Positions 2,967-24,161 of a stretch of 24,646 nt of DNA are shown here, piece after piece. A program made the translations under genes and the position numbers. The stretch spans positions 1 to 24,646 of the IMG/VR virus record IMGVR_UViG_3300033153_006796. One strand, written 5' to 3'. The stretch comes from a virus. Each line of letters starts with the position of its first letter. Position 1 is the stretch's first letter. The notes beneath the pieces were generated by a model. That model saw nothing but the letters and a program-made list of their open reading frames with translations. It was not told where the DNA came from and made no database searches.

Positions 2967-4607
2967 TTAGTTTGCGCCGGAACTGTCGTTTGAAGTATCG
3001 CCCATATCAACTGTACGAGCGTAAGAACCGTCTGTCATATCTTCAAAGGATGCTGTCTCTGGACTGTTAGCTGGAACCGCAGCGTCTCTAGCCCAATTGC
3101 GAACCCTGGAAAGGGTTTGGCCTTCACCCCAACCAATGATGACAGGTTTAATGTCATTCTTGGCTTCTAGGATATCTTTTGTAGTAGCAATTCTTTCATC
3201 TTCATCGTAGGCAACTTGGCGGGCTTCAAGAATTGCCTGCTCCAATTCTGCACCAGTGAAGTTTGCTGTTTTAGCTGCAATCTCATCGGCGTCAATGTTT
3301 TTATCTTGCAGGTTATTTTTCTCAAGCAACACTTCGAGGATTGCTTTGCGGTCAACCTCGTTGGGAACATCGACCCAGAAAATTTTGTCGAACCTACCAG
3401 ACCTAAAGAATTCAGGTGGCATAAGGTCTGGTTCATTTGCGGTGGCTACGACGTAGATTGGCTTGTCGTTGTCGTTTAGCCATTTGAGGAAGCTACCAAA
3501 CACCCTCGCAGTCGTACCACCATCACTACGGCCAGAAGATTCAGTGCCAGCAAAAGCTTTCTCAATTTCATCGATCCACAAAATACAGGGGCTCAGGGCT
3601 TCTGCAACCTTAAGAGCAGACTCAATGCCCTTCTCTGACTGGCCAACCATTTCACCAAACACTCGGCCGACATTGAACCAAAGCAATGGGACTTCCCAAG
3701 CTGTAGCGATTGTCTTTGCTACTAGGGACTTGCCAGTGCCAGGAATACCAGCATTTAGAATACCCCGTGGCATTGGTGGAGCATTTGGGTCTGAACGATC
3801 TGCAAAGCGGAATGACTTCTTTCGTGTAAGTAGATACTTTTTAAGAGGCTCGAGCCCACCCACCCCATCAAGGCCACGGGGGTCTGGGTCAATCCATGTA
3901 ATTGCCGCACTCCCAGAGATTAGAGACTTCTTGGCTTGAATGAGCATTTTTGGATCAATCCTTTTAACCTCAGCCAAGGATTGTGCCATTGCTTGTTGAC
4001 ATTGTGCAGCCTCTAGCCCCTGAAGGGAGTCAACAACTGCACTGAAGTTTCCGTTTAACTCGATGTCATCTTTGACGGTTTCTGGGGCAGCACCGACCAT
4101 ACCATTTACGATGGTCTCAATTTCGTCACGCTCTGGTAGGGGTAAATCAACATTGATGAAGTTGGCTTGGGGGCAAGGCTCTGTGTCCAACACAATAATT
4201 TGGACCCAATTTTTCACGTTGCCTGCTCCCTGTGCTTTACGGGAGATGTCTTTTAGGTAACGCATGATCTCGGGAATTTTAATGTAAGGTGAAAAATCCT
4301 CACACACAATGACTGCTGGCCCATTGTCAAATTGGTCGTGAATGTCTTGAACAAGTTTCTTTGGGTTGCTTAAGTCTTTCCGAACAGAGCGCCAACCACG
4401 ACTTGAATTGTCCACGCTACCCTGGTCAATTGGGGTTAGACCAGTAGATACGCGCCAAAAATAAAGGTTATAGGGTTTTCCTTTCTCCTTTAGGGTGTTT
4501 GCCATTTGACGAATGAGAATCTCCCCACGGAACTCCTCATTGGTTGAGACCCAAAGAAGGCCACTGCGAGCCTTAATCAGGGTCCTTAGTTTCTTCTGAA
4601 ATTCCAT
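2967..4607 (-). CDS. Ycf46-like AAA+ ATPase
   Basis: A 546-residue AAA+ ATPase. The N-terminal 230 residues begin LRTLIKARSGLLWVST and resemble the N-domain of plastid/cyanobacterial Ycf46 proteins. The ATPase core has Walker A GIPGTGKS (287-294), a pore-loop-like segment near 313-325, Walker B ILWIDE (342-347), sensor-1 VATANEPD (387-394), Arg fingers in FFRSGRFD (400-407) and the lid motif TGAELEQA (451-458). All key residues are present, so it should be active, probably as a hexamer that remodels proteins. The C-terminal tail carries YARTVD (529-534) and then an acidic, Ser/Asn-rich end. The start overlaps the stop of the upstream gene by one base (TAATG). The role in the phage is not established. 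Confidence 0.92.
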   Translation of the reverse strand: MEFQKKLRTLIKARSGLLWVSTNEEFRGEILIRQMANTLKEKGKPYNLYFWRVSTGLTPIDQGSVDNSSRGWRSVRKDLSNPKKLVQDIHDQFDNGPAVIVCEDFSPYIKIPEIMRYLKDISRKAQGAGNVKNWVQIIVLDTEPCPQANFINVDLPLPERDEIETIVNGMVGAAPETVKDDIELNGNFSAVVDSLQGLEAAQCQQAMAQSLAEVKRIDPKMLIQAKKSLISGSAAITWIDPDPRGLDGVGGLEPLKKYLLTRKKSFRFADRSDPNAPPMPRGILNAGIPGTGKSLVAKTIATAWEVPLLWFNVGRVFGEMVGQSEKGIESALKVAEALSPCILWIDEIEKAFAGTESSGRSDGGTTARVFGSFLKWLNDNDKPIYVVATANEPDLMPPEFFRSGRFDKIFWVDVPNEVDRKAILEVLLEKNNLQDKNIDADEIAAKTANFTGAELEQAILEARQVAYDEDERIATTKDILEAKNDIKPVIIGWGEGQTLSRVRNWARDAAVPANSPETASFEDMTDGSYARTVDMGDTSNDSSGAN

Positions 4608-6213: not shown

Positions 6214-6764
6214 TGCCAGGAAAACTTACACAGATAGAACGGCGTGAACTTTTAACACAGTTTGCCAGATTACTGGCTGGTGGTGCCGATCGTACAGAAA
6301 TCGTTGAACAGTTAGACATATTGGATTCCCAATATGAGATGTTGTTGCAAGGAACGTTTATTGCTCTTGAAAATGAAATCTCTGGCAAAAGTACGATTAG
6401 GCTTTACGCAGAATATGTTTCAAGACAGTTGCAGCTTTCAAGAGACCTTGAAGACTTGAAAGCTGGGCTTAGGGGTGCTCGTTGGAAAAATGGTCAAGCT
6501 TATGTTGGGGCTGTAAAGACCCAGAGTGAGATCATGGATAAGATCATCAAGACCGGTCAAGAACTTGAGATCATAGTTAAACGCGCAGACAAGGTTATGC
6601 TGATTGACGGTCGTGACCCTCGTGAGATGGACCGTGACGAATTGGCATCTACACTTAAAAATGAAATCAGAGAAGCCAGAGCCCTTTCGTCGAGGAATGA
6701 TCGTGGACGTAAAAAGGGTAAGATACTTACGATCGATCCTAGTAAAAAAGAGGAAGCTTCCTAG
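6213..6764 (+). CDS. Probable terminase small subunit
   Basis: A 183-residue, mostly helical protein directly before the large terminase, overlapping it by one base (TAG/GTG). The N-terminal part (ERRELLTQFARLLAGG ... IVEQLDILDSQYEMLL) could be a helix-turn-helix that recognises packaging DNA. The centre looks like an oligomerisation helix region (about 65-125) and the C-terminus is basic (RNDRGRKKGK). The small subunit recruits DNA and stimulates the large subunit. The call rests on position, length and helical build, as small terminases vary strongly in sequence. Confidence 0.7.
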   Translation: MPGKLTQIERRELLTQFARLLAGGADRTEIVEQLDILDSQYEMLLQGTFIALENEISGKSTIRLYAEYVSRQLQLSRDLEDLKAGLRGARWKNGQAYVGAVKTQSEIMDKIIKTGQELEIIVKRADKVMLIDGRDPREMDRDELASTLKNEIREARALSSRNDRGRKKGKILTIDPSKKEEAS

Positions 6765-8239
6765 TGCCGATAGAGTATCCGAAAAATAAAAGGATACGTA
6801 GGGATGACAGTCTTCAAAAGCTACAAGACGTTCGTGCTGCTAGAGATGACCTTGTTAGAACCCTCATTGTAGACGATGGCCGGGTTGATATTTTAGCAGA
6901 GGAAGTTGGCTATAGATTTGATGATTTCCATCTAGCCCTTGACGACTTCCAGAACGAGCATAAGAACACTCTTCAGTTAGCCCCTCGTGGTTGGGGTAAG
7001 TCTACAGCGGGGAATATTTTAAAGAACGCTGTAAGGATCATCCAAAATAGAAATATTAGGATCCTACTTGCTTCTGAGACCTCCACACAAGCTTGCAACT
7101 TCCTCTCTGAGATTAAGGGCATCCTTACCCACCCAAGGGTTGTTGAACTGTTTGGGGACTTAAAGGGAGACGTATGGCATGAGAATGCCATTAACGTAGC
7201 TGGTAGAACCAAAGCTGGTAAAGAGAAGACTGTTACAACTGCTGGTGTTGACGGCAATTTAACCTCTGGTCACTTTGACATTATTTGCCCAGATGACCTT
7301 GTCACTCTGAAAAATAGTAGAACTGCGTTTAGTAGGGAGAAGATTGTTGAATGGTTTTACACTACTCTCCTACCTTGTGTAACAGATGAGACGACAGAGT
7401 TTCACATTCTTGGTACACGATACCACCCAGAAGACCTTTATGGTCACATGATCAAGAATGACCCGAAATTTAAAAAAACCACCCAGTTGATCCCCGCCTT
7501 TAATCCAGATACAGAGAAGAGTAATAATCCTAAGATTTTTTCCACTGAATGGCTCACAGAACAGCGCGACAGTATGGGTCGCATTTATTTCAATTCCCAG
7601 TATAACCAAGATCCGTCTGGTGTACAGGGAGTTATTTTTGACGAAGATGACTTTAAGTGGGTCGGTGAGTTGCCACCAAATCTGATCAAGTTCCAGGGTG
7701 TTGACCTTGCAGTGGGAACTAAAACTCAGAATGACAAGTTTGCAATGGTTACTATTGGGGTAGACCCTAAGAATCGTAGAATTTATGTTGTAGACTATTA
7801 TACTGGAAAGGTTACTCTAAAACGGCAAGATGAGATTATTGCGCAACGCTGTGAGACTGCAGAACCAGTGGCAGTTGGCATCGAAGCTAATGCTTTCCAG
7901 ATTTCTAAAATTATTTCTTTAAAGGATGACCCTCGTTACTCTTTCATTCCTGCGTTACCTGTATATACTGATAAAGACAAAATGACGCGGGCTCAGATGC
8001 TCCAGGTCAGGTTTGAACGTGGTGAGATCTATTTCCAAAATGCAGAACGCCAAGGTGAACTCATGGAACACCTTATGGCTTTCCCGAACGGTCGCTATGA
8101 CGACTTGTTCGATGCACTTGACATTGCAATTAGAACTGCTTTCCAAGTTCGGAAGCGGAAAAAGAAGAAGCGAACAAAAGAGCCTGGCATAATTAGGCCA
8201 GGCAAAAGGACAGGAGGCTCGAGATGGGTAGCACAGTAG
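6764..8239 (+). CDS. terL: Terminase large subunit (packaging ATPase-nuclease)
   Basis: This 491-residue protein is the packaging motor. It pumps DNA into the prohead through the portal and cuts concatemers. The ATPase half has Walker A APRGWGKST (73-81), Walker B DIICPDD (172-178) and a motif ILGTRYHPEDLYG (215-227). The nuclease half has the RNase H-like acidic residues D314 (GVDLAVG), E374 (VGIEANAFQ) and D447/D450 (YDDLFDALD). The basic C-terminus (KRKKKKRTKE) could contact DNA or portal. It starts with GTG overlapping the upstream stop, and its 3' end overlaps the next gene by 16 nt. All expected motifs are intact. Confidence 0.95.
   Translation: MPIEYPKNKRIRRDDSLQKLQDVRAARDDLVRTLIVDDGRVDILAEEVGYRFDDFHLALDDFQNEHKNTLQLAPRGWGKSTAGNILKNAVRIIQNRNIRILLASETSTQACNFLSEIKGILTHPRVVELFGDLKGDVWHENAINVAGRTKAGKEKTVTTAGVDGNLTSGHFDIICPDDLVTLKNSRTAFSREKIVEWFYTTLLPCVTDETTEFHILGTRYHPEDLYGHMIKNDPKFKKTTQLIPAFNPDTEKSNNPKIFSTEWLTEQRDSMGRIYFNSQYNQDPSGVQGVIFDEDDFKWVGELPPNLIKFQGVDLAVGTKTQNDKFAMVTIGVDPKNRRIYVVDYYTGKVTLKRQDEIIAQRCETAEPVAVGIEANAFQISKIISLKDDPRYSFIPALPVYTDKDKMTRAQMLQVRFERGEIYFQNAERQGELMEHLMAFPNGRYDDLFDALDIAIRTAFQVRKRKKKKRTKEPGIIRPGKRTGGSRWVAQ
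8182..8203 (+). promoter_or_regulatory. Hairpin at the 3' end of terL, before the next ribosome binding site
   Basis: GCCTGGC (8182-8188) pairs with GCCAGGC (8197-8203) around an 8-nt loop. The next gene's AGGAGG begins a few nt later and its ATG (8224) lies inside terL. The hairpin may mark an mRNA processing or attenuation site, or limit ribosome flow between the two overlapping genes. Confidence 0.4.
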
Positions 8240-8653: not shown

Positions 8654-10372
8654 ATGAGTGATGCCCCCAAAACTCTCGCCAGTAGAGTCCCCTTTAAAGC
8701 TGAGATAGAAACTGCCGATGGGGGCAAGAGGAATATTCCGACACACTTGACCGTCATTGGGGTGAAGAAGCCCGAAGGTGCTCAAGAAACTGTCGAACGC
8801 AAAAAGGGGAATAAAGAATCAAACCTTAAGACTCTAGAGAAACAAGAGACTTATTTAGACAAGAGACTTTTACCCCCTCCGTATAATATCTCAGAACTTG
8901 TTTACCTTGAAGAGGTGAGCAATGTTCTTCGTGAGTGCATTGACGCAATGGTTGTCAATGTTGAAGGGTTCGGACATACGTTCCGGGCAAGAGAAACAGA
9001 CGAAGCATTCCAAGACAAGTTTAACCAAGACATAAAGGAAGAACTTCGGAGAGCCGAAGCTTGGGTTACAACTCTTGGCGTTGATATCTCACTTGTTGAA
9101 TTACGCAAACGAATGCGTAGAGACCTTGAACTCAGTGGTAATGGCTATTGGGAGATCGTCAAAAATAAAAAAGATACAGCATCTGAGATCCATCAGATTC
9201 CCACACAGTGGATGCGTCTTAGTAAACAAGATGAAGATTTTACAAAAATGACCATTCCCCTCGTTGAAACTAACGAGGAGAGTGGATATGTTATTAAGAG
9301 GAAAACGGTTAATAAACGTTTTCGTCGTTTCGTTCAAGTTGACAGTAGTGGGAAAGCTCTTGTTTGGTTTAAGGAGTATGGAGACCCACGACTTATAAGC
9401 AAGCTTGATGGTAAGGTTGTTCCAGAGGAAGATAGAAAGAAATTCCCAAGAGAGAATCGTGCTAACGAAGTAATTCATTTCAAGATTTATTCGCCACGTA
9501 CTCCTTACGGTATTCCCCGCCATATTGGGCGTTACCCCTCAATTTTGGGCAGTAGGCGTAGTGAGGAAGTAAATTTCTTTTCCCTAGACAACCATATTCC
9601 AAGCATGTTCATCATGGTTGAGAATGGTTCTCTGACAGATGCAAGTATCCAGCGTTTACAGGAGTTGATCGAAACTCAGGTTAGCCCTGATCCAAATTAC
9701 AGCAAATTCATCTTGCTCGAAGCTGAGGCTGACATCAATGAGATCATTCCCGGCCAAGTTGGAGCCCCAAGCATCACAGTTAAGTCGATGCACGAAGCCC
9801 AACGTACAGACGAGATGTTCCAAAAATATGACCGTAATAACCAAGACAAGGTGCGCCAAGCATGGCGACTCCCACCATTGTTCATCGGTCGGTCTGATGA
9901 TTATACGAGAGCAACTGCACTGACTAGCCGTCGTGTTGCAGACGAGCAGATCTTCGCACCAGAACGTGAGACGGTTGACAGTTGGATGAACCGCTTGATG
10001 CTAGATGCGAATTATAGATTCTTCATATTTAAGAGTAGAACACCAAATGTCACAGACAATGAGACTTTGGTCCGTATGATGATGGCTTCTGAAAGATCAG
10101 GTGGCATGAATGCGGAGCGTTGTAATACTCTTATGAATGATGTCTTTGAAGGAACCCTTGGACCGATGCCAGAAGGCATTGACCTGAATATTCCCTACTC
10201 ACTACAGTTTGCACAAGCTCAGAACGCACAGAGACCCCCAGAGGAGTTTGATGGAGACCCCCATGGGCGACCAGCAATGGATGGGGCAATTACAGGAACA
10301 AATAATGATGAACGTAGTGCTGGCGACTGGGTAGATAACTACCTGAGAAGTATTGAGAATGGCTCTGATTAA
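8654..10372 (+). CDS. Portal protein (PBSX-type)
   Basis: A 572-residue portal. Portals form the dodecameric ring at one capsid vertex through which DNA enters and leaves. The sequence resembles the PBSX family: a helical N-terminal wing with LSGNGYWEIVKNK (about 155-170), then the stem/crown region with NHIPSMFIMVENGSLTDASI (about 313-332), RLQELIETQVS and the segment QAWRLPPLFIGRSDDYTRAT. A charged, Pro-rich tail ends the protein. No strong ribosome binding site precedes the ATG; the hairpin at 8603-8630 lies 23 nt upstream. The 3' end overlaps the minor head gene by 14 nt, the usual order in this phage type. Confidence 0.9.
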   Translation: MSDAPKTLASRVPFKAEIETADGGKRNIPTHLTVIGVKKPEGAQETVERKKGNKESNLKTLEKQETYLDKRLLPPPYNISELVYLEEVSNVLRECIDAMVVNVEGFGHTFRARETDEAFQDKFNQDIKEELRRAEAWVTTLGVDISLVELRKRMRRDLELSGNGYWEIVKNKKDTASEIHQIPTQWMRLSKQDEDFTKMTIPLVETNEESGYVIKRKTVNKRFRRFVQVDSSGKALVWFKEYGDPRLISKLDGKVVPEEDRKKFPRENRANEVIHFKIYSPRTPYGIPRHIGRYPSILGSRRSEEVNFFSLDNHIPSMFIMVENGSLTDASIQRLQELIETQVSPDPNYSKFILLEAEADINEIIPGQVGAPSITVKSMHEAQRTDEMFQKYDRNNQDKVRQAWRLPPLFIGRSDDYTRATALTSRRVADEQIFAPERETVDSWMNRLMLDANYRFFIFKSRTPNVTDNETLVRMMMASERSGGMNAERCNTLMNDVFEGTLGPMPEGIDLNIPYSLQFAQAQNAQRPPEEFDGDPHGRPAMDGAITGTNNDERSAGDWVDNYLRSIENGSD

Positions 10373-11243
10373 CTACGAAGAGCTTTACCGTCAAACAGAC
10401 GGTGAAAGGCTCGAAGTCGCAATTGGCCCAATTGTCAGACGTGGTCAAGAATTGCTTGATGAGAACTGGCAAAGGGCTGTAGATGAGTCTGTTGATGCCT
10501 TTGGTATAACCCTTGAAGACGGTGCTACGGTAAGCATAGCTTTGGCGGGTCTAGCGGCGGGGCTGGGGGCGGTCGTAACCAGTGCCGAGGCCGCTAGGCT
10601 ACGCACCCTGGTAGACAGCGCATACCGCGTTGTTAAGCGTCGTATCTCGAATGTTTTAAAAGTTGATTTTGTTGTAGATGACATTGACGACCTTGCGATT
10701 AGGACAATTGCAAAGGAGCCAGTGTTTTGGATCAACGGCCTCTATAATAATCAGATGTCTGAACGGCTTGCCGCAGTAGCTAGAGAAGTTGCAATTGAGA
10801 AAGAATTGACTGGAAATGCAGCTTCTCGTGCTTTAAGTCCAGTGGTTAGACAAGAACTTGCACTCGCCGGTGGCCATACGAAATTTGCCAAAAATGTCCC
10901 CGGGAGGTTTAATGGCAATGAAAGGAATTACTCTAAGGTTTTGACTGCCAATCTAACAAATAGGGCGATCAATTATTCTAGTTTAATTTCAATGAGTCAA
11001 GCAAGAATTGAACGTTATGAGGTCGTTGCAGTTTTAGACAACAGAACCTCGGAAGTTTGTAGGAATATGAATGGTAGGACTTTTACAGTTCAGCAGGGGA
11101 TGGACACATTCACTGCTTTGGCTAATGCCAATAGTCCAGAAGAATTTAAAAACATCAGTCCTTGGATGACTGTTGACCAGATTAGAAACACACCGGATTT
11201 GGCAGACGCAGGGTTGGCACTTCCACCGTATCACGGATTGTGA
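10359..11243 (+). CDS. Minor head protein (Mu gpF / SPP1 gp7 type), stops at conserved Cys position
   Basis: A 294-residue protein; the ATG at 10359 is chosen over TTG at 10353. It carries the C-terminal MuF-type domain: RYEVVAVLDNRTSEVC (219-234), NMNGRTF and the end LPPYHGL (288-294). These proteins bind the portal inside the head and may leave with the DNA. Family members usually end in PP.H..CR(S/C). Here the Cys codon is TGA and the downstream frame would continue R-S-T-I before TAG at 11265. Residues about 55-85 are an Ala/Gly-rich hydrophobic stretch encoded by an unusually GC-rich patch (10541-10620). The family call is firm. Whether the TGA is a true end, a mutation or a recoded codon is open. 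Confidence 0.85.
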   Translation: MALINYEELYRQTDGERLEVAIGPIVRRGQELLDENWQRAVDESVDAFGITLEDGATVSIALAGLAAGLGAVVTSAEAARLRTLVDSAYRVVKRRISNVLKVDFVVDDIDDLAIRTIAKEPVFWINGLYNNQMSERLAAVAREVAIEKELTGNAASRALSPVVRQELALAGGHTKFAKNVPGRFNGNERNYSKVLTANLTNRAINYSSLISMSQARIERYEVVAVLDNRTSEVCRNMNGRTFTVQQGMDTFTALANANSPEEFKNISPWMTVDQIRNTPDLADAGLALPPYHGL

Positions 11244-11258
11244 AGATCCACAATTGCA

Positions 11259-11276
11259 CGAGCCTAGTTAGGCTTG
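11259..11276 (+). promoter_or_regulatory. Small hairpin 15 nt after the TGA of the minor head gene
   Basis: CGAGCCT (11259-11265) pairs with AGGCTTG (11270-11276), seven pairs including one G-U, around loop AGTT. The TAG of the would-be extension is in the stem and loop, and GGAGG of the next gene starts at its 3' edge. It could modulate translation of the next gene. Its position is also compatible with a short bacterial SECIS-like element, but it lacks verified SECIS features. Confidence 0.4.
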
Positions 11277-11286
11277 GAGGTTCAAA

Positions 11287-11589
11287 ATGGCTCAAGGCGA
11301 CATTTGGCCCACACCAGAGATTGACACTTTTGCAGTTACAGGTACGAGTGACATCTTTGTTTTACAGGATCCAAAGATTATTCTTGTCTACCTGTACAAT
11401 CTTGGTGGTGGAACTGTTTTCATGCAACAGGGTGCTCCAGCAGAACTGAATAAGGGAATTGTGATTCCAACATTGAGTTGGGCAGCCCTTTCTGTTGACA
11501 CTCCAGAATTCCGTTGGGTTGGGGACACCCTCAATCTTATTGGGACCGCTGCTATCGATGTGTCTGCCTATATTGCGAGGAAGGGATAA
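11287..11589 (+). CDS. Small beta-rich virion-like protein
   Basis: A 100-residue protein with GGAGG 7 nt before its ATG. Its composition is hydrophobic and beta-rich (FAVTGTSDIFVLQDPKIILV; VGDTLNLIGTAAIDVSAYI). The build is like short phage adaptors or decoration proteins that follow head genes. The TAA overlaps the ATG of the large fibre gene (TAATG), so it may be translated in step with it and act as a connector for the appendages. Not recognised beyond that. Confidence 0.7.
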   Translation: MAQGDIWPTPEIDTFAVTGTSDIFVLQDPKIILVYLYNLGGGTVFMQQGAPAELNKGIVIPTLSWAALSVDTPEFRWVGDTLNLIGTAAIDVSAYIARKG

Positions 11590-15428: not shown

Positions 15429-15866
15429 ATGCCAGACCAACTCATAAACGGAGTGGGAACATTGGTTTCCATTTTAACAGGGTTGGGGTTGTGGAAGGGT
15501 GGGCAGGCAGTTGTTAACCGTTATTCTCAGAATGGACAACCAGAACAACTTCCCAATGATGGGAATTCAACAATTACTCCAGAGATATGTAGATCCCAAC
15601 ATGAGATAGTGGAGACAAAGTTGGTTGGTGTTCAAGGTGCTTTAGACAAGGGTGGAGAGCGTATGGAGACCATGACAATTACGCTTCAAGAGATTAAAGA
15701 TGCTCAAGTCAAGAACAATAGTGATACTCAGATTCAACTTGCAAAGCTCAACGGTAAGCTTAGGCAAGAGATAGACAGTCAGATAGACAGTAAGTTTGAC
15801 AAGTTGGAAGACAAGGGTGAGAAAAATATTGACCGCCATGAAAAAAGGTTTCATCCGGTTAGTTGA
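15429..15866 (+). CDS. Hypothetical membrane-anchored coiled-coil protein
   Basis: A 145-residue protein; AAAGGA precedes the ATG. Residues about 5-30 (LINGVGTLVSILTGLGLW) are hydrophobic enough for one membrane segment. The remainder is hydrophilic with heptad-like spacing (KLNGKLRQEIDSQIDSKFDK). Base composition is AT-rich, like the phage core and unlike the fibre genes on both sides. The build (short N-terminal membrane helix plus coiled coil) fits a holin-like, spanin-like or virion-associated protein, none of which can be settled from the sequence. Confidence 0.7.
   Translation: MPDQLINGVGTLVSILTGLGLWKGGQAVVNRYSQNGQPEQLPNDGNSTITPEICRSQHEIVETKLVGVQGALDKGGERMETMTITLQEIKDAQVKNNSDTQIQLAKLNGKLRQEIDSQIDSKFDKLEDKGEKNIDRHEKRFHPVS
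15769..15792 (+). repeat. 12-bp tandem repeat in the coiled-coil gene
   Basis: AGATAGACAGTC is followed at once by AGATAGACAGTA, encoding the EIDSQIDS part of the coiled coil. Probably a recent in-frame slippage duplication. Confidence 0.6.
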
Positions 15867-20665: not shown

Positions 20666-21700
20666 ATGACCCAGACAATTTCAGATAGCCATTATGACGG
20701 TGGGGATGGTATTACTGGTGAGGGCAATGGTAGCCTGGAAGCCTTCATTCGTCAGATCATTGCTGACTTGAATGCGTTGAACGTTCGTTCTGCTGCACAA
20801 CAGGCGAAACTTGACTCATTGGTTGCTAATTTTAACAACCATCGTGGGTCTGCTGGTGTTCATGCCGCCCCTGACACAACTAATGTGATTGGGTCTCCTG
20901 TTGCCACGGATGTAACCGCTGACATTTTGACATTGCTTAACGATGAAGCAACACAGTACGATATCCATATTGTGAATCTGGCTGGTGGTATTCATGGGGC
21001 AACTGGTGTTGCAGACATCCTTACAGAAGCTTACCCAGCTACAGATCTAACTACTGCTGTTGCTCTTGGGTCTAATCTTAGGACCAAGTATACGACCCAT
21101 ATTGCCAACACTGCTGGTGGAATTCATGGTGGTGCTGATGCGACGAATACTATTGCTGCGCCAGACCCTACTGACTGGGATACGTTGATTACTTTCTGTA
21201 ATGAATTCAAGAATACCACTGGTTTCAATGCTCACATCATATTGACTGGTGGCGGAGTCCATGGTGGAACTGGAGTGGCAGACGCTGTTACGGCAGCAGA
21301 CTGTGGTGTTCAGAAGACTGCACTTGAACTTGAGATTAATGAGTTTAAGACTGACCTCAATGCACACATTGCTAACTTGGGATCTCACCCTGGTGCTGGC
21401 ACTGCGAATAGTACAACTGCTGCTACGACCGAGACAACTTCAGTTGCTTTGGTCAATGGTTTGAAAGCTACTGCGAACACTCACTTTGCAGATGCTGACG
21501 ACCACTTTGATGCAGACACAGAGGTGGTTGCTGGAACGGCTTCTGAATATGAAGATATTCTTGCAGTGGTTGCTGAGTGGAAGGCCGCATACGTTGCTCA
21601 TGCTGCGAAGTCTGCTGTCCACAGTAAAGCAGATGCTGCGAATGCAGAGACCGTTCTTGGTACTGGTGGTGCTGTGACAGTCGGTATGATTGCCGGTTAA
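20666..21700 (+). CDS. Structural protein with seven histidine-containing repeats
   Basis: A 344-residue protein with GGAG 9 nt before the ATG. After an N-terminal part with SHYDGGDGITGEGNGSLEAF, it is built of seven repeats of 39-45 residues beginning at H59, H101, H145, H190, H234, H273 and H312. The best copies read H...TAGGIHGGADATN. The repeat also occurs three times in the protein at 17063. Composition is that of the phage core, so this may be the native version. Likely a virion appendage, shaft or decoration protein. It sits between the fibre cassette and the protease gene. Confidence 0.8.
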   Translation: MTQTISDSHYDGGDGITGEGNGSLEAFIRQIIADLNALNVRSAAQQAKLDSLVANFNNHRGSAGVHAAPDTTNVIGSPVATDVTADILTLLNDEATQYDIHIVNLAGGIHGATGVADILTEAYPATDLTTAVALGSNLRTKYTTHIANTAGGIHGGADATNTIAAPDPTDWDTLITFCNEFKNTTGFNAHIILTGGGVHGGTGVADAVTAADCGVQKTALELEINEFKTDLNAHIANLGSHPGAGTANSTTAATTETTSVALVNGLKATANTHFADADDHFDADTEVVAGTASEYEDILAVVAEWKAAYVAHAAKSAVHSKADAANAETVLGTGGAVTVGMIAG

Positions 21701-21701
21701 T

Positions 21702-22124
21702 ATGATTAAGTTTGCCACAGAGTCCTCCAGGTCAAAGTTCCAGGTCATTGAACGGAACGAAGAACTTCGAGAGGTTACTGGTATCGTAGCTGACCCAATC
21801 AACGTAGACGTTAGAGGTCTACAAATTCCTGAACATTTGATCGTAGATGCCCAAAGAGAATTTTCTTTGAATTTCAGGAATACTGGTATCAACCATGAAA
21901 AGGATGATTTGAAAAGACCCATCCTTTATAACGACACCGTTAGAATTATGGAAGATTGGATAGTCAGAAACGACCAAGTGATCGATGGTGAGTTTGTTCC
22001 AAAGGGTGCATGGATGCTTACCTTCCGCTTTACAGACGAAGCATTGTGGGAGCGTGTTAAGCGTGGTGAGCTGGATGGCTTCAGCTTTGAAGCTGCAATA
22101 GTAAAGAGGCCAGCAAATGCCTGA
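21702..22124 (+). CDS. XkdF-like prohead protease
   Basis: A 140-residue protein; the ATG at 21702 follows the previous stop by 1 nt and is preferred over TTG at 21690. The pattern NHEK (H65), IMEDWIVRN, VPKGAWMLTFRFTDEALWE and GELDGFSFEAAIVKRPA (123-138) fits the XkdF family of phage serine proteases. The His of NHEK and the Ser of GFSFEA are the likely catalytic pair. Such proteases cleave scaffold and capsid N-termini during maturation. The scaffold-like gene overlaps it by 8 nt. The length is short but complete for the catalytic domain. Confidence 0.8.
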   Translation: MIKFATESSRSKFQVIERNEELREVTGIVADPINVDVRGLQIPEHLIVDAQREFSLNFRNTGINHEKDDLKRPILYNDTVRIMEDWIVRNDQVIDGEFVPKGAWMLTFRFTDEALWERVKRGELDGFSFEAAIVKRPANA

Positions 22125-22955: not shown

Positions 22956-24161
22956 ATGAACAACCAAGAATTCCTGGATCGGGCAGCCATCACAACTGCG
23001 GAACTCGCCAGTGCTGGTAAACTGAATCCAGAGCAGTCCAATCGTTTTATCGACTACGTCATTGACGAGTCTGTTCTGAAGAACATGTCTCGCCTTGTGC
23101 GTTTTCGTCCTGACCAGCTTGACATCGACAAGATCGGTGTTGGTAATCGCGTTGCGGTTCCCAAGGCTGAGGCTGTTGATCCTGGTGTGCGCCGTGGCGT
23201 GAATACCAGCAAGGTTAGCCTGCTCCCCAAGGACATCATGGTGCCCTTCGAGATCAGCGACACCTTCCAGCGTTTCAATATTGAAGGCGACGACGTTGAG
23301 GATCACATCATTCGCATGATGGCTACTCAGCTTGCCAATGACCTCGACGAGCTTTGGCTCAATGGTAATTCCCTCGGGCCCGCCGTTCTTGAGTCGACGA
23401 TTCTCGACGGTGGTAGTTCCACGCAGTATGTCAAGGACTCATACCTTGGCCTGTTTGATGGCTTCCTGAAGCTTGCCGAGGCCGGTCACGTTGTTGATGG
23501 TGGTAATGCCGCCCTCGACGGTGCCGTGTTCAACAAAGCGATCTTGGCCATGCCGACCAAGTTCCGCAAGAATCGGAACCTCATCAAGTTCCTGCTCTCC
23601 CCCGACCACGAGCAAGGTTATCGTGAGGAAGTTAGCGGTCGCGCTACTCCCCTCGGCGACAACGCTCTCCAGTCGGTCAACAACCTGTCCCCCTTTGGTG
23701 TTGAGATGATGCCCGTTCCCCTGCTGTCTGCCAACCCGCAGACGGTTGAGAACAGCGTTGCGAATACCGATGGCACCACGGCTACTCAGCTCAGCTTTGA
23801 GCCTGTCTCCAACATCGTGATCGCTCCCACGACCCTCGCTAGCATTCCCACAACTGCGTTTGCTCTAGCGACTGACTATACCGAGGTCCTCGCCTCTGGT
23901 ACGTGGACTCGTCTGGCTGCCCCAGGTGGTTCTATTGGTTCCGGTGCTACCATCAAGGCGACTTACGATAGTCGTGGCAAGATGATGCTGACCAACCCCA
24001 ACAACCTGATTGTTGGTATTGGGATGGATATTCGCATTGAGCGGGATCGTAACATTTACAAGAGTGTGAATGAGTTCGCGATCACGGTTAGTGTTTGTTG
24101 CCAGGTTGAGAATACTGACGCGATGGTTCTGGTTAAGAACATCGCCGATCCTAGCCTGTAG
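22956..24161 (+). CDS. Major capsid protein (HK97 fold)
   Basis: A 401-residue protein; AAGGAG lies 11 nt upstream, with a three-codon ATG-AAG-AGA-TGA ORF in between. The N-terminal region is helical and may be cleaved. Residues about 92-111 (KDIMVPFEISDTFQRFNIEG) and the following helix IIRMMATQLANDLDELWLNG are typical of HK97-like capsids (long helix of the P domain). FLLSPDHEQGYREEVSGRAT and the C-terminal NLIVGIGMDIRIERDRNIY fit the remaining A-domain and strand elements. Codons are C/G-ending much more often than in the adjacent genes, as expected for a highly expressed protein. The strong hairpin at 24187-24247 follows. Confidence 0.88.
   Translation: MNNQEFLDRAAITTAELASAGKLNPEQSNRFIDYVIDESVLKNMSRLVRFRPDQLDIDKIGVGNRVAVPKAEAVDPGVRRGVNTSKVSLLPKDIMVPFEISDTFQRFNIEGDDVEDHIIRMMATQLANDLDELWLNGNSLGPAVLESTILDGGSSTQYVKDSYLGLFDGFLKLAEAGHVVDGGNAALDGAVFNKAILAMPTKFRKNRNLIKFLLSPDHEQGYREEVSGRATPLGDNALQSVNNLSPFGVEMMPVPLLSANPQTVENSVANTDGTTATQLSFEPVSNIVIAPTTLASIPTTAFALATDYTEVLASGTWTRLAAPGGSIGSGATIKATYDSRGKMMLTNPNNLIVGIGMDIRIERDRNIYKSVNEFAITVSVCCQVENTDAMVLVKNIADPSL

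Follow-up and report, generated by a model that had tools for sequence, protein, structure and literature searches.

We analysed a 24,646-base stretch of viral DNA, IMG/VR record IMGVR_UViG_3300033153_006796, which covers the head region of a tailed phage and is called the window here. The following features bear on the analysis:

6764-8239: terminase gene
8654-10372, plus strand: portal protein gene (PF04860, TIGR01540, PHROG 12), directly upstream of the MuF gene
10359-11243, plus strand: MuF/SPP1 gp7-type minor head protein gene, 294 amino acids as terminated by TGA; its ATG at 10359 lies inside the end of the portal gene
11241-11243, plus strand: TGA codon at the invariant Cys295 position, placed by alignments and codon read-out
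11244-11267, plus strand: in-frame, family-like tail RSTIARA and TAG (11265-11267), with a predicted beta strand at residues 298-301
11259-11276, plus strand: perfect 8-pair inverted repeat with a GU cap (AGUU loop when folded)
11277-11281, plus strand: GGAGG, from its sequence a probable ribosome-binding site for the next gene (ATG 11287)
21690-22124: XkdF-type protease gene
22956-24161: capsid-type structural protein gene

The product of 10359-11243 is a MuF/SPP1 gp7-type minor head protein. It scores 49.9 bits against TIGR01641 (cut-off 39.65) and 20.8 bits against PF04233, below that profile's cut-off of 29.6; PF04233 matches 37 of the 39 members of our family alignment. The gene order of terminase, portal and MuF, with the protease and the capsid-type protein downstream, is that of a MuF-family neighbourhood. 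The protein resembles MuF/SPP1 gp7-type proteins in its TIGR01641 match, the position of its gene right after portal, Cys234, His292, the PPxHxx-R pattern and its fold. It differs from them by a TGA at the Cys codon; read plainly, it stops short of the Cys, the following Arg and the final beta strand. Under the standard code the complete PPxHxxCR end motif is therefore absent, as PPYHGL is followed by TGA, with the Arg and the tail beyond it. The missing Cys codon is the only departure from this motif and the profile match stands without the Cys, indicating that the protein is a variant of the family. Searches of viral contigs with the window's MuF or terminase protein found no close relatives. 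Among more distant homologues, the MuF proteins of two Stenotrophomonas phages (L002:997-2337 and L012:1063-2265) carry a fused C-terminal ParB-like nuclease domain; the window protein has no such extension.

The MuF reading frame ends in LALPPYHGL, followed by TGA, the codons R-S-T-I-A-R-A and TAG. An earlier note on this DNA had placed the TGA at the conserved Cys of a family ending in PPxHxxCR, and both points were borne out. Among 76 distinct homologues, the codon at this position is TGC in 51, TGT in 23 and TGA in two, the window and a viral contig designated L088; TGC or TGT is thus found in 74 of the 76. The 39-member alignment has Cys234, Pro289, His292 and Cys295 invariant and Arg296 nearly so, and, the TGA cases aside, no homologue has a non-Cys residue at position 295. 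The TGA at the conserved Cys of the MuF gene is real in the sequence. Elsewhere among 19,467 aligned MuF codons, in frames split at TAA or TAG, just two more in-frame TGA codons occur, both at the N-terminal edge of homologue L060, which puts the TGA at the Cys beyond chance. The MuF genes of Rhizobium phage L338C (L003/L034) and Vibrio phage 1 (L007) are each spread across two frames, probably through a frameshift or sequencing error, whereas those of close relatives are uninterrupted.

The residues after the TGA still fit the family, as the earlier note had also held. Aligned with nine phage homologues, the window has its TGA in the column of the invariant Cys, and the invariant Arg and a tail like the CRSTIILR ends of Rhizobium phage proteins follow. 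The head morphogenesis proteins of Rhizobium phages L338C, P11VFA and RHph_I4 end in CRSTI and a few more residues, giving a tail of the same length as in the window; unlike the window, they have TGC at the Cys codon. Where the contig does not end first, homologues run at least 7 residues past the Cys, with varying tail length, and the window tail ends where Cys-coding homologues end. We encountered no homologue that ends at HGL without the Cys.

TGA is also an ordinary stop in this phage. It ends 6 of the 32 likely genes of the window, namely the MuF gene and five others, which comprise the four named before (277, 552, 20074 and 22124) and one at 15866; in several of the five it lies at a stop-start overlap. 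Genome-wide reassignment of TGA was rejected on these grounds. We found no tRNA genes or Rfam elements in the window, no match to a tRNA-Sec model and no selenocysteine (Sec) machinery. An open reading frame at 11240-11449 is most likely a chance frame overlapping the gene at 11287. Away from the head genes, a minus-strand phage operon includes an AAA ATPase resembling FtsH/CDC48-type ATPases (2967-4607), and its product shares a near-C-terminal motif (YARTVDIE or YARTVDMG) with that of the adjacent minus-strand gene at 2194-2955.

One reading of the TGA is that this phage can do without the last 8 residues and normally makes the shortened MuF. The loss is confined to the very end of a protein whose tails are long in some homologues and short in others. 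However, apart from L088, termination at or ahead of the Cys was seen in none of the homologues, and an unused tail without drift counts against this reading. An AlphaFold model with the TGA read as Cys (mean pLDDT 90, pTM 0.86) has a fold matching viral minor capsid proteins and predicts a strand at residues 298-301, past the TGA, with a pLDDT of about 95. A sequence search and Foldseek found no relatives of solved structure for the window MuF, which has no bearing on the novelty of its fold.

Inteins favour conserved functional sites. Two relatives, L035 (from about 3250) and L043 (from about 3300), carry a long insertion exactly before the invariant MuF Cys. The insertions start with CYVAGT or AVFAGT and finish with WGSN or VVSN, followed by CRT. 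A Pfam search of them gave no match; from their end sequences they look like two different inteins. Since the Cys is invariant and directly preceded by these intein-like insertions in two relatives, loss of the tail is unlikely to be neutral. Together with the length of the homologous tails and the confidently modelled strand, which the Cys starts, these data disfavour the earlier suggestion that the TGA trims a dispensable tail, and we regard a dispensable tail as quite unlikely.

The second TGA case, L088, is a 93-kb contig (IMGVR_UViG_3300022220_000003) that was retrieved through its capsid, blind to the Cys codon. Its MuF is about a quarter identical to that of the window, and the capsids of the two phages are related. 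The end of the L088 gene (L088:6330-6413) reads PLPPFHFR-TGA-RCAVDVS-TGA. As in the window, TGA occupies the Cys codon, a 7-codon tail is intact and a perfect A-GU-U-capped stem follows; L088 differs in having TGA rather than TAG as its second stop and in having close relatives that code for Cys. These relatives, L087 and L083 (80-84% protein identity), have TGC at this codon. On the L088 branch the tail after the TGA is unchanged, whereas 6 changes specific to L088 are clustered in the 19-base segment that ends at the TGA (relative to the gene rate, P is about 0.004, uncorrected for the choice of place). The tRNA-Sec model gave a sub-threshold match in the L088 record, to a 70-nt tRNA-like gene, and another sub-threshold match in one further record.

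These two genes raise the possibility that UGA is decoded as Sec by host SelB and SelC, directed by the GU-capped hairpin at 11259-11276, yielding a full-length MuF with Sec in place of Cys. The alignment of the TGA with an invariant Cys, the family-like tail and L088 as a second, independent TGA-for-Cys case all favour such decoding. The window hairpin, GAGCCTA-GT-TAGGCTT at 11260-11275, is extendable to 8 pairs and has the apical loop AGUU when folded. The seven-pair stem with a GU loop described in the earlier note is thus present, but it begins 16 nt after the TGA instead of 15. The contiguous GU-capped stem of the window has 8 bp, and its AGUU loop lies 22 nt from the UGA; the corresponding values in L088 are 7 bp and 18 nt, and the spacing is SECIS-like in both genes. 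By length of perfect GU-capped stem, the two TGA genes top the 76 homologues, the next best having 4 bp, and such a stem is expected by chance at 0.06-0.2% of sites; this strict measure was fixed after both TGA sequences had been seen, which counts against its use for Sec.

We scored bacterial SECIS elements with a published bSECIS model (PMC13188914). Both TGA genes pass, but so do 31% of the TGA or TGC triplets across the window, used as random sites, and 34 of 73 Cys-coding homologues (47%). For calibration we took 29 SelD and 30 GrdA sites from genomes belonging to two phyla, 59 genuine Sec sites in all. The model passes 29/29 SelD sites and 11/30 GrdA sites, and a GU-capped stem of at least 7 bp occurs in 0/59. 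TGA and Cys genes are not distinguished by hairpin energy, with the TGA genes at ranks 5-18 of 75 homologues. The Cys-coding L087 has the GACGTC stem of L088 with the loop CACU, lacking the GU tip, and folds better than L088. Hairpin energy, L087 and the genuine Sec genes led us to reject the GU-capped stem ranking as decisive evidence for Sec. Because the bSECIS rule accepts random and Cys-coding sites, L087 combines the stem with a Cys codon and none of the 59 Sec sites has such a stem, we take the hairpin common to the window and L088 for a curious coincidence rather than a validated signal for Sec.

The window shares with the bacterial selenoproteins SelD and GrdA an in-frame TGA at a Cys position, homology downstream of it and a stem-loop in the 16-37 nt range. 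It differs from them in the form of the stem; in addition, the close relatives of L088 lack the TGA, no Sec machinery was seen in the window, and MuF is not a known redox enzyme. The earlier note had ranked Sec as the least likely explanation. L088, an independent case with the same GU-capped stem, lends Sec some support, but the hairpin is not diagnostic when judged on real Sec genes, and we consider Sec decoding unlikely.

To gauge how rare the TGA is, we scanned 2.9 million viral contigs for [LIVMF]PP[FY]Hxx-TGA-R[STC], a pattern restricted to PP[FY]H forms. Besides the window, one real MuF gene with TGA was recovered, in the single contig designated L088/L105. A narrower scan of genome contigs, covering [LIVMF]PP[FY]H forms followed by R-T or S-T only, gave no further case; of the 32 viral-contig and 56 genome-contig stretches that matched the patterns, all but L088/L105 had no MuF frame upstream and were rejected. 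No TGA case emerged either from pattern searches of 793 genomes. These belong to two phyla, one being rich in Sec-type SelD, and the negative result argues against Sec. The start-motif pattern that gave 62 relatives matches 0 of the 23 MuF genes found through capsids; therefore, Cys-coding MuF genes in the viral collection probably number thousands or more. Either rare nonsense changes or consensus errors could account for so low a frequency of TGA. Error alone is harder to reconcile with the finding of L088 in a sample of only about 75 homologues taken without reference to the codon, and with the related capsids of the two phages that carry TGA.

In our judgement, which is not a computed estimate, a sporadic nonsense change at the Cys codon, as a real variant or a consensus error, is the most likely explanation, and we hold it with modest confidence; Sec, functional leakiness and a dispensable tail follow in that order. 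One substitution, TGY to TGA, would have struck the codon for the invariant Cys of an otherwise intact MuF gene, either as a real variant of the window genome or, less likely, as a consensus base error. With no dedicated recoding, the TGA would serve the host as a normal stop, and the terminated protein would presumably lack everything from the Cys onward, including the Arg and the final beta strand. A nonsense change is supported by the rarity of TGA at the motif across the viral contigs, the TGC codons of the two closest L088 relatives, the use of TGA to end five other window genes together with the lack of tRNA and Rfam elements there, an unremarkable hairpin energy and a tail that is undegraded, as after a recent change. 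Set against it are the conservation of Cys234, His292, Cys295 and, nearly, Arg296, the intein-like insertions and the confident strand, which suggest that the loss should be costly; an allele with a costly tail loss should not become the contig consensus. The occurrence of both TGA cases in phages with related capsids and with the same perfect A-GU-U-capped stem also argues against a sporadic change.

Following a nonsense change, any full-length product would arise only through ordinary UGA leakiness. Such leakiness could itself be functional if a near-cognate tRNA (e.g., tRNA-Trp) let a few percent of ribosomes past the UGA and this small yield sufficed, as a minor head protein is needed in few copies. 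The tail keeps its family sequence and usual end point and, judging from the model, appears structurally needed, all consistent with functional leakiness. However, among the homologues this position is never filled by a residue other than Cys. An inserted Trp may therefore fail to function, and we consider this reading quite unlikely.

A Sargasso Sea study treated single-sequence TGA/Cys cases as candidates only, owing to possible sequencing error (PMC1088965), and this standard fits the window TGA. In favour of Sec, Basilisk-like Bacillus phages are reported to carry tRNA-Sec genes (PMC6145125). We found no phage selenoprotein in the open literature searched. It is improbable, though worth stating, that a group of tailed phages makes MuF as a selenoprotein, with Sec at the C-terminal Cys, host machinery and a compact GU-capped SECIS placed before the ribosome-binding site of the next gene. 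If it were so, we know of no earlier phage selenoprotein that forms part of the virion.

If the UGA is read through, the window would encode a recoded phage head protein, possibly a phage-encoded selenoprotein. If the TGA is plain nonsense, a TGA/Cys pair with a hairpin that passes the usual SECIS rule is weak evidence for Sec in metagenomic phages. Either way, these data mark the C-terminal Cys of MuF, the site of two intein-like insertions, as functionally interesting.
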